64,000 nt of DNA from Dehalococcoidia bacterium. GTDB lineage: Bacteria > Chloroflexota > Dehalococcoidia > Tepidiformales > Tepidiformaceae. Positions within the stretch are counted from its first letter, which is position 1. Every line of letters begins with the position of its first letter. The stretch covers positions 1 to 64,000 of the forward strand of contig JAJEIT010000006.1 in assembly GCA_022827945.1 (NCBI GenBank), given 5' to 3'. Of the stretch, positions 23,169 through 26,444 are shown one piece after another. The translations under genes were made by a program, and so were the position numbers. The notes under the pieces were generated by a model. The model saw nothing but the letters and a program-made list of their open reading frames with translations. It did no database searches and was not told the origin of the DNA.

Positions 23169-24767
23169 CTAGAGGCGGACGAGGCGGGCGCTGGCGATGC
23201 CTTCGACCGCCTCGATCATGTCGAGGGCGTCGGCGTCAGGTTCGTCGTCAACCATGAGGACCATGAGGGCCCGTCCGCGGGGGCTGCTGCGGCCGACGCG
23301 CATGGCGCTGATGTTGATGTCCTGCGCCCCGAGCAGCGTCCCGAGGCTGCCGATCATGCCGGGCCGGTCCTCGTTCTCGCAGACGAGCAGGAAGCCGTTG
23401 GGGTCGGGGACGATGTCGATGTCAAGGTCGTTGATGCGGACGAGCGTGGGGCGCGAGTGGCTGGCGGTGCCGCTGACCGTGACCTGCGCCTCGCTGCTGC
23501 CGACCCGCAGCTCGATCAGGTTGTGGAACTCCTCGTGCGAGGCGCGGAGGCGCTCGTCGATGGTCCAGCCTCGGGCCTCGGCGATGCTCGTGGCGTTCAC
23601 GAGGTTCACGTTCTGCTCGCTGATGGGGCGCAGCAGGCCACGGATGGCGAACGCCTTGAGCGGGGTAACGTCGTGCTCGGCAATCTCGCCGAAGAAGGAG
23701 AGGTCGATTGTCGTGAGCTGGCCGCTGAGGAGCTGCGTCGCGACCGTGCCCAGCATCTCCGCGACGGCAATGTAGGGCCCGACGACCTCGAGGGTCTCGG
23801 GCGGCACGAGGGGGGCGTTGACGGGGTAGCGGGGCGGGCGTCCCGCGAGCACGTCGAGCACCTGCTCGGCGATGTCGATGGCGATCCGCTCCTGCGCCTC
23901 GACGGTCGAGCCGGCGAGGTGGGGAGTGACGATGATGCGCTCCTCCTCGAAGAGGGGGTGCTCGCCGGGGGGCTCCGAGGTGAACACGTCGAGGGCGGCG
24001 CCGGCGACCTTCCCCGAGCGCACGGCCTCGAGCAGGTCGTTCTCGTCGATGATGCCGCCGCGAGCCGCGTTCACCAGGCGCACGCCGTCCTTCATGGCAG
24101 CGAACTGCTCCCGCGCGATCATGCCGCGGGTGGAGGCCGTCAGCGGCGTGTGCACGCTGATGAAGTCGCTCTCGGCGTAGAGACGCCCAAGCTCGACCGG
24201 CTCGGCGCCCAGGCCACGCACGCGCTCGACGGGGACGAACGGGTCGTGGGCGACGACGTTCATCTCGAAGGCGAGGGCGCGGCGGGCCATCTCCGAGCCG
24301 ATCGGACCGAAGCCGACAAGCCCGAGGGTGCGTCCGCGAAGCTCGGCGCCCATGAAGTCGCGCCGGCGCCACTCGCCGCCGCGAAGGGAGCGGTCGGCCC
24401 GGGGGATATGGCGGGCGAGAGCGACGAGGAGGGCGAAGGCGTGCTCGGCGGCGGCGATCGTGTTGCCGCGGGGCGCGTTCACGACGACGATGCCGCGCTC
24501 GGTGGCGGCCTCGAGGTCGACGTTGTCCACGCCAGTGCCGGCACGGGCCACGATCTGGAGGCGACCGGCGTTGGAGAGGGCGTCGGCCGTGACCTTGGCC
24601 TCACTGCGCACGACCAGGGCTTCGTAGCCGGCAAGGGCCTCACGCAACTCGCCCGATGAGAGGCCGGTGCGGACATCAACCTCGGCCTCTTGCTCGAGCA
24701 AAGCGATGCCTTCATCCGCGATGGGGTCGGCGATGAGGACTCGGGGGCGGGGGCCGGGTTCGGTCAC
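23169..24767 (-). CDS. serA: D-3-phosphoglycerate dehydrogenase (long form with ASB and ACT domains)
   Basis: 532 aa; oxidises 3-phosphoglycerate, the first step of serine synthesis. Substrate domain start VLIADPIADEGIALL; Rossmann VGFGPIG (151-157); NAARGGIIDE; TPHLAGST with the catalytic His. Residues about 325-450 form the allosteric substrate-binding domain and about 455-532 an ACT domain (FLLVCENEDRPGMIGSLGTLL), usually the serine-sensing site. GTG 24767 overlaps the stop of a 12-codon upstream ORF. The class V aminotransferase lies upstream on the same strand, separated by the phd gene. Confidence 0.96.
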   Translation of the reverse strand: MTEPGPRPRVLIADPIADEGIALLEQEAEVDVRTGLSSGELREALAGYEALVVRSEAKVTADALSNAGRLQIVARAGTGVDNVDLEAATERGIVVVNAPRGNTIAAAEHAFALLVALARHIPRADRSLRGGEWRRRDFMGAELRGRTLGLVGFGPIGSEMARRALAFEMNVVAHDPFVPVERVRGLGAEPVELGRLYAESDFISVHTPLTASTRGMIAREQFAAMKDGVRLVNAARGGIIDENDLLEAVRSGKVAGAALDVFTSEPPGEHPLFEEERIIVTPHLAGSTVEAQERIAIDIAEQVLDVLAGRPPRYPVNAPLVPPETLEVVGPYIAVAEMLGTVATQLLSGQLTTIDLSFFGEIAEHDVTPLKAFAIRGLLRPISEQNVNLVNATSIAEARGWTIDERLRASHEEFHNLIELRVGSSEAQVTVSGTASHSRPTLVRINDLDIDIVPDPNGFLLVCENEDRPGMIGSLGTLLGAQDINISAMRVGRSSPRGRALMVLMVDDEPDADALDMIEAVEGIASARLVRL

Positions 24768-24802
24768 GGGGCGGGCTCGTGGATGGGGAGGGGTGGGGCC
24801 AT
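24764..24802 (-). CDS. Putative leaderless 12-codon upstream ORF coupled to serA
   Basis: ATG at 24802 opens a short frame encoding MAPPLPIHEPAP and stops at TGA 24766-24764, which overlaps the serA start as GTGA. A -10 box ends 6 nt before this ATG. serA itself lacks a ribosome binding site, so ribosomes may load on the leaderless ATG and reinitiate at serA. Proposed from layout only. Confidence 0.4.
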   Translation of the reverse strand: MAPPLPIHEPAP

Positions 24803-24808
24803 GGGCTC

Positions 24809-24814
24809 AGCATA
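24809..24814 (-). promoter_or_regulatory. -10 element upstream of serA
   Basis: Minus-strand TATGCT, followed by GAGCCC and ATG (24802). This is the same 6-nt spacing seen at pyrD and selA. No clear -35 box. Confidence 0.45.
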
Positions 24815-24872
24815 GCGCCGCCGGAGGTTACGGCCTCTGGGAAAAGAGCCGGGCGTTCAGGGCGATAGCCGT

Positions 24873-25181
24873 TCACTCATCTTCCCGGTCGATGAAGGGA
24901 ATCTCCCTTGAGGAGTCGCGGCGGTCGGGTAATTCAAGGTCAACCCCGCGAGGCATGTTCTCGACGAGCCACTTGCCCATCGGCATTTCTTCGGGGACGC
25001 GCCTGCGCCACTCAAGGTCATTCGTCCGGACCTGCCACTCTCGTTCGGGGACGACGACGAAGGGCTTGCGGAGGCCGATTCGCTGCGGGCCCTCCTCCTC
25101 GGCGAGGCGGAGGATCTCGGAGAGGCGGGCCTTTGCCTCGGCAATCGTCCAGGTGCGGGGCGTTTCGGGCTGGGTCGTCAT
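24873..25181 (-). CDS. Phd/YefM-type antitoxin-like protein without an adjacent toxin
   Basis: 102 aa. The N-terminal region WTIAEAKARLSEILRLAEEEGPQ followed by IGLRKPFVVVPEREW matches the Phd/YefM DNA-binding fold. The C-terminal part is longer than usual, with a GKWLVENMPRGVDLELP segment; in this family that end wraps the toxin. The ribosome site GAGGAGG stands 5 nt before the ATG. No Doc, RelE or PIN gene lies on either side: serA is downstream and the aminotransferase upstream. An operator-like palindrome sits in its upstream region. Confidence 0.75.
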   Translation of the reverse strand: MTTQPETPRTWTIAEAKARLSEILRLAEEEGPQRIGLRKPFVVVPEREWQVRTNDLEWRRRVPEEMPMGKWLVENMPRGVDLELPDRRDSSREIPFIDREDE

Positions 25182-25196
25182 GGCGCCTCCTCGATA

Positions 25197-25223
25197 TGGA
25201 CTAGTCTAGACTAGACTAGTCCA
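25197..25223. promoter_or_regulatory. 27-bp perfect palindrome, likely operator of the Phd-type gene
   Basis: Arms of 13 bp (25197-25209 and 25211-25223) around a single central A at 25210. It contains repeated CTAG steps (ACTAGTCTAG / CTAGACTAGT). It lies 16-42 bp upstream of the antitoxin ATG, where an autorepressing Phd protein would bind. Confidence 0.7.
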
Positions 25224-25270: not shown

Positions 25271-26365
25271 CTAGGCCGTGGCGCCGGCGGGGGTTTCGGC
25301 GAGGAGGCGCTCGAGCACGTCGAGGGCGGCGGCGATGTCGTCCTGGCTGAAGTGCCCCATGTGGCCCACGCGGAAGATCTTGCCCCGGAGGCTCTGCTGG
25401 CCGCCGCCAAACACGACGCCGAACTCCTCGCGGGCGCGTTTCGCGATCCCGGGGCCGTCGACATCGTCGGGCCAGTGCACGGCGGTGACGGTGTCGGAGG
25501 CGAAACGCTCGTCCTGCGCGAACAGCTCGAGGCCCATCGCGCGGACACGGTCGCGGGTGTACTGGGCGACGGCATGGTGGCGGCTGTAGATACCCTCCAG
25601 GCCCTCGGCGCGGAGGGAGTCGAAGGCCTTGTCGAGCCCGTAGAAGATCGACAGTGCCGGGGTCCACGGTGTCTGCGCGTTCTCCAGTGAGGTGCGGTAG
25701 CGGCGCAGGTCGAAGTAGAACCGCGGCATGGTCGCGGTTTCGGAGGCTTCCCAGGCGCGCTCGCTGAGCCAGAGGAATGCCAGCCCAGGGGGCACCATCC
25801 AGCCCTTCTGCGAGCCGCTCACGAGGACGTCGACGCCCCAGCGCTCAGCCGGGCAGGGGATGGACGAGACGCTGCTGACACCGTCGACGATGAGCAGCGG
25901 CCCGCGCTCGCGGACGGCGGCGCCGATGGCCTCGAGCGGGTTCGTGATGCCGGTCGAGGTCTCGTTGTGGGTGACGAGGACCGCCTTGATCGAAGGGTCC
26001 GCGTCGAGACGGCGAGCAATCTCGTCGGCGTCGGCGGCGCCGCCCCACTCGACCTCGTAGCGCACCACCTCGGCGCCGTAAGTCTCGGCGATCGAAGCGA
26101 GACGGTTGCCAAAGACGCCGATGGAGACCGCGAGGACGCGGTCGCCGGGGCTAAGCGTGTTGATGACGGCGGCTTCGAGCCCGCCGGTTCCGGAAGCCGT
26201 GATCGTGAGCACGTCCGTGGAGACGCCGAATACCCAGTTCAGACCCTCGGTGACGCGCTTGATGATGTCCGCGAACTCCGGTCCGCGGTGATTCATCATG
26301 GGCCCGCCAACGGCTTCGAGGACATCGTCGGGGCACGGGGTCGGTCCAGGGATTCGGAGGTTCAC
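25271..26365 (-). CDS. Class V aminotransferase (alanine-glyoxylate / serine-pyruvate type)
   Basis: 364 aa PLP enzyme. NLRIPGPTPCP start, NHRGPEF, TASGTGGLEAAV, THNETSTGITNP, LIVDGVSSVSSIP with the PLP-binding Asp, and SGSQKGWMVPPG with the Schiff-base Lys. It may supply or consume serine/glyoxylate, and lies upstream of serA on the same strand with phd in between. GTG 26365 is preferred since it precedes the conserved NLRIPGPTP and has GGAAGA upstream; TTG 26377 is possible. Exact substrate cannot be read from sequence; a phosphoserine role is less likely. Confidence 0.88.
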   Translation of the reverse strand: MNLRIPGPTPCPDDVLEAVGGPMMNHRGPEFADIIKRVTEGLNWVFGVSTDVLTITASGTGGLEAAVINTLSPGDRVLAVSIGVFGNRLASIAETYGAEVVRYEVEWGGAADADEIARRLDADPSIKAVLVTHNETSTGITNPLEAIGAAVRERGPLLIVDGVSSVSSIPCPAERWGVDVLVSGSQKGWMVPPGLAFLWLSERAWEASETATMPRFYFDLRRYRTSLENAQTPWTPALSIFYGLDKAFDSLRAEGLEGIYSRHHAVAQYTRDRVRAMGLELFAQDERFASDTVTAVHWPDDVDGPGIAKRAREEFGVVFGGGQQSLRGKIFRVGHMGHFSQDDIAAALDVLERLLAETPAGATA

Positions 26366-26444
26366 GGCTCTTCCCAATGAGGTTTCTTCCCGAAGATTCT
26401 GGCCTAGCGCGCTGCTACAAACACGATCGGGGGCCGGTCCGCGT

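Follow-up and report, generated by a model that had tools for sequence, protein, structure and literature searches.

A predicted leaderless mini-ORF at the start of serA, and its possible role as a ribosome-delivery device in Tepidiformaceae

How do ribosomes reach the start of serA in a Tepidiformaceae genome where the GTG that opens the gene is without a Shine–Dalgarno (SD) sequence? The gene lies in the window, by which we mean the entire stretch of 64,000 nucleotides that was analyzed, at 23169..24767 on the minus strand, and it encodes a D-3-phosphoglycerate dehydrogenase of 532 aa (TIGR01327, 624 bits against a cut-off of 454). The best duplex that can be formed with the anti-SD over positions -20..-3 relative to its GTG (24767-24765) is -2.2 kcal/mol, where called genes have a median of -5.8 and random sites one of -2.9; a preliminary description of the locus was thus right to credit this start with no ribosome site of its own. 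Here, we examine the small reading frame that ends on that GTG and suggest that it probably serves to bring ribosomes to it.

The start of serA and its promoter

Read 5' to 3' on the minus strand, a -10 box TATGCT (24814-24809), which is kept in the related genomes G007 and G001, is followed by the 6-nt spacer GAGCCC (24808-24803) and then by an ATG (24802-24800). This ATG opens a predicted leaderless mini-ORF of 12 codons, MAPPLPIHEPAP plus stop (24764..24802), in a frame different from that of serA; counterparts of 14 and 16 codons are found in G007 and G001, respectively. The stop TGA (24766-24764) overlaps the serA start in a GTGA (24764..24767). The preliminary description had set out this arrangement exactly, to the base.

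Statistics for the genus were gathered on about 2.0 Mb of contigs from five genomes (the window's own contig C22, G001, G006, G007, and G008), whose gene starts are approximate because genes were called with a simple, home-made codon-usage script. In the first 1.2 Mb, TANNNT ended 6 nt before 3.3% of the start candidates versus 0.12% of internal start codons, and 7 nt before 2.1% versus 0.30%, which corresponds to enrichments of about 28-fold and 7-fold. Over the larger set, upstream RTGs that carry TANNNT at 6–7 nt were in the gene frame in 161 of 191 cases, the figure for all upstream RTGs being 1992 of 5621. The leaderless promoters of the genus prefer C before the ATG and display no visible -35 motif; a consensus promoter scan, which found no sigma-70 site, is for this last reason uninformative here. 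Such promoter traits are hallmarks of leaderless genes (Zheng et al. 2011, PMC3160421), which have TANNNT some 12 bp ahead of their start; Chloroflexi are among the groups listed in that paper, with 4 of 12 genomes and 4–6% of genes. TANNNT at 6–7 nt before a start codon is, in this genus, a true leaderless-gene signature.

The serA mini-ORF shares both the promoter signature and the spacing of the leaderless genes in that survey, although what is leaderless here is a mini-ORF of 12 codons and not the gene itself. Its -10 box and its ATG are 6 nt apart, the most frequent distance in the genus signature, and the score of its promoter falls at the 58th percentile among the putative leaderless genes of the genus, so that the first base transcribed is probably the A at 24802 with which the mini-ORF opens.

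In our judgment the mini-ORF is probably a leaderless device that delivers ribosomes to serA. Transcription from a serA-specific promoter would begin on the A at 24802 or no more than a base or two away from it; a 70S ribosome would initiate on the 5'-terminal ATG, read the 12 codons, terminate at the TGA within GTGA, and reinitiate on the overlapping, SD-less GTG. The sequence of the peptide would be irrelevant, and the mini-ORF would do the job that an upstream operon gene does in those relatives whose serA has no promoter of its own.

Farther upstream in the window is a gene for a PhnW/BhcA-type class V aminotransferase (25271..26377, minus strand). Between it and the serA promoter lies a small Phd/YefM-like ORF (24873..25181, minus strand) that scores just below the curated cut-offs (PF02604, 25.6 bits against 29.8; TIGR01552, 20.4 bits against 20.8). 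An alignment with G007 (locus L011) places a homologue directly upstream of the serA promoter there too, and the ORF is absent between the aminotransferase gene and serA in G001 and G003–G006. Directly upstream of the Phd-like ORF, at 25197-25223, there is a palindrome, TGGACTAGTCTAGACTAGACTAGTCCA, partly conserved in G007 (CTAGTCTAGTCTAGTCC), which is a possible operator-like site for the Phd-like protein.

The upstream region in related genomes

The relatives compared are metagenome assemblies of Dehalococcoidia/Tepidiformaceae. A serA gene is present in nine genomes of the genus, one of which (G002) breaks off there at the end of its contig, leaving eight with a readable upstream region. 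The layout of promoter and mini-ORF is kept in three of these, the window genome (G000), G007, and G001, and is absent in five. G007 reads TATGCTGACCCCATG, MANGPNPVFQEPAP, GTGA, and G001 reads TATGCTGAAACCAATG, MALTDYTVSSQSSLHD, ATGACTGA, the last being an overlap of 8 nt. A strict pattern, CTATGCTGANNCCNATGGC, retrieved only G001, since the spacing varies by one base, and a search of a plasmid collection gave no match.

The serA genes of G001 and the window have a DNA identity of only 73%. Upstream of them, a local alignment recovers a conserved promoter block, AGAGGCCGTAACC..TATGCTGAGCCCATGGC (24798..24838, minus strand), that ends at the start of the mini-ORF; its 42 columns, from AGAGGCCGTAACC to ATGGC, score 45, a value reached by none of 2000 shuffles (maximum 27). 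The similarity covers the promoter as far as the ATG and ends there, and the peptides of the three genomes differ. What all three have in common is an ATG at 6–7 nt from the -10 box and a stop that overlaps the serA start, over distances from mini-ORF start to serA of 35, 41, and 43 nt and with overlaps of -4, -4, and -8 (G000, G007, and G001). The net indel of 6 nt between G000 and G007 preserves the frame, while the G001 mini-ORF uses the other out-of-serA frame. Given an ATG at that position, the chance that all three mini-ORFs end at the serA start is, by our own count, about 2/27; this shared end is therefore supportive but not decisive.

The main argument for entry into serA by termination–reinitiation, and for a mini-ORF that takes the place of an upstream gene as ribosome donor, comes from the relatives that have no mini-ORF. 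In G003, G004, G005, and G006, the aminotransferase stop is located 10–12 nt before the same SD-less serA GTG, with neither promoter nor mini-ORF between the two genes, and the serA start of G008 shares an ATGA with the end of an upstream ORF. Wherever the region is readable, then, a stop codon coincides with the serA start or closely precedes it, so that serA appears normally to be entered by termination–reinitiation from an upstream stop. G003, G005, and G006 still retain a short stretch, AAGAGCCCG or AAGCGCCCG, that resembles the G007 leader at its 3' end; this would fit a deletion in which promoter and mini-ORF were lost and the aminotransferase stop came to lie next to serA.

The most serious alternative, to which we would assign something near one chance in four, accepts the promoter but takes the mini-ORF to be incidental, with ribosomes initiating directly at serA on a short SD-less leader that is rich in C and 35–43 nt long. 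The lack of conservation of the peptide favors it, as does the ease with which GTGA overlaps arise: 280 of 2215 control mini-ORFs, about 13%, had a -4 overlap with one candidate start or another. A GTGA alone being no rarity, the weight must rest on the promoter spacing and on the conservation in two relatives. Against an incidental mini-ORF are the position of the ATG, in all three genomes 6–7 nt from the -10 box, and that of the stop, which falls each time on the serA start, the G001 similarity that reaches the ATG and then stops, and the entry into serA from an upstream stop codon in the relatives. Counting against ribosome delivery are the small number of genomes, only three, that carry the layout and their differing frame relation (-4 in G000 and G007, -8 in G001).

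Leaderless mini-ORFs overlapping a gene start were in excess in the sampled contigs (8 of 22 versus 304 of 2215 control mini-ORFs, p=0.007, where any candidate start within 60 nt is counted and start positions are approximate); when the two serA cases are removed, p=0.048. We considered an amidohydrolase mini-ORF in G006 as a second conserved case and rejected it, its ATG being lost in the nearest relative and the layout not being conserved in its six relatives. Such layouts therefore also arise by chance, a point in favor of an incidental mini-ORF, and single cases without conservation are not to be trusted. About 40–60 nt upstream of the ATGA start of the amidohydrolase there is an invariant block, CCGGGGAATATCCT, in seven genomes of the genus (L200–L206), which is probably a promoter or operator.

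Proline codons and the minor alternatives

The leaderless start and the termination–reinitiation that the preliminary description had proposed are thus favored by the spacing of the genus promoters and by the layout in G007 and G001. It had further suggested that stalling on proline codons could couple serA to Pro-tRNA supply or EF-P activity, and had looked to related genomes for a leader of conserved length and proline content; the layout is indeed there, with 12, 14, and 16 codons, but the proline is not. Pro codons number 5 of 12 in G000, 4 of 14 in G007, and 0 of 16 in G001, and a Pro-Pro pair occurs only in G000. Five Pro codons in 12 are admittedly unusual, at most 1% of control mini-ORFs reaching that level, and this is what can be said for an attenuation in which Pro-codon- or EF-P-dependent stalling on the leader tunes serA. 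The absence of any Pro in G001 and of Pro-Pro in G007 speaks against it, as does the lack of a metabolic link, for serA makes serine and not proline; moreover, the fold predicted for the first 100 nt showed no attenuator-like hairpin. We regard this attenuation as very improbable. Most likely, the Pro codons are a product of the C-rich sequence that separates promoter from gene, and in a GC-rich genome relatives need to be compared before the codons of a mini-ORF are taken as a sign of regulation.

Equally improbable is a serA that truly starts at the ATG and is joined to it by a frameshift, whether error or programmed: the ATG does sit where the starts of leaderless genes sit, but it is out of the serA frame in three separate genomes, and relatives without this ATG conserve the GTG along with the residues that follow it.

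Known couplings and the wider family

Ribosome delivery by a short leaderless frame has a close precedent. In mycobacteria, "coupled" leaderless small ORFs that end in RTGA at the next gene are over-represented (Shell et al. 2015, PMC4633059), and it is their layout, not their peptide, that is conserved (PMC4633059). The serA mini-ORF resembles them in its size within 5–50 codons, its RTGA overlap, and a layout that is conserved where the peptide is not; the promoter spacing predicts a 5'-terminal RTG as well. It differs in that the host belongs to the Chloroflexota and not the Actinobacteria, in that it is a prediction from sequence, and in the overlap of G001, which is 8 nt. A review of translational coupling by NTGA overlap lists -4 and -8 among the enriched or preferred spacings and refers to a proposal in which short ORFs may do no more than bring in ribosomes (PMC12548453); both spacings occur at serA, where coupling is predicted. 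With the leader-peptide attenuators of amino-acid genes, among them the leaderless Cys-rich ORFs of mycobacteria (PMC4633059), the mini-ORF shares a short ORF before an amino-acid biosynthesis gene. Unlike them, the window leader has no serine enrichment, its Pro is not conserved, and neither terminator nor antiterminator was seen; nor is a regulatory codon run of their kind conserved among G000, G007, and G001.

Other genera of the family have a different arrangement at this gene. In 16 of 21 family loci (L034–L040, L042, L044–L046, L048–L051, and L053), an XRE helix-turn-helix domain of about 58 residues is fused, N-terminal and in frame, to SerA (PF01381, 40 bits against a cut-off of 23 in the one full-length protein scanned). 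The length of these proteins is constant, 587–590 aa, with no stop between the XRE and SerA parts. Two conserved palindromes lie upstream, ATGCAnTTTGCAT-like and ATGCAnnnTGCAT-like (ATGCA..TGCAT), the second of which overlaps the presumed -10 box just before the ATG; XRE-SerA is a probable enzyme–repressor fusion that would repress its own promoter. Across 294 sampled genomes of the class, which gave 15 matches, the fusion occurred only in the Tepidiformaceae (the match in G037 lies for the most part over SerA and does not represent a fusion). We found no description of it in open papers, which is weak evidence of absence, and it is possibly of greater interest than the mini-ORF. That the mini-ORF might be a remnant of this HTH domain was considered and is not supported: its frame is not that of serA, and a comparison by eye showed no similarity.

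If ribosome delivery is the true explanation of the serA mini-ORF, an ATG at 6–7 nt and a serA-overlapping stop are to be expected wherever TATGCTGA occurs. More tentatively, and with the balance of likelihood against so broad a statement, leaderless mini-ORFs may be interchangeable ribosome-delivery modules in Tepidiformaceae, which take over from the upstream gene once an SD-less member of an operon, serA for instance, acquires its own promoter, and which are lost on its return to the operon. The kind itself is already known, and the present case would extend coupled leaderless mini-ORFs from mycobacteria to the Chloroflexota. It suggests a route by which an SD-less gene may leave its operon without gaining a ribosome site.
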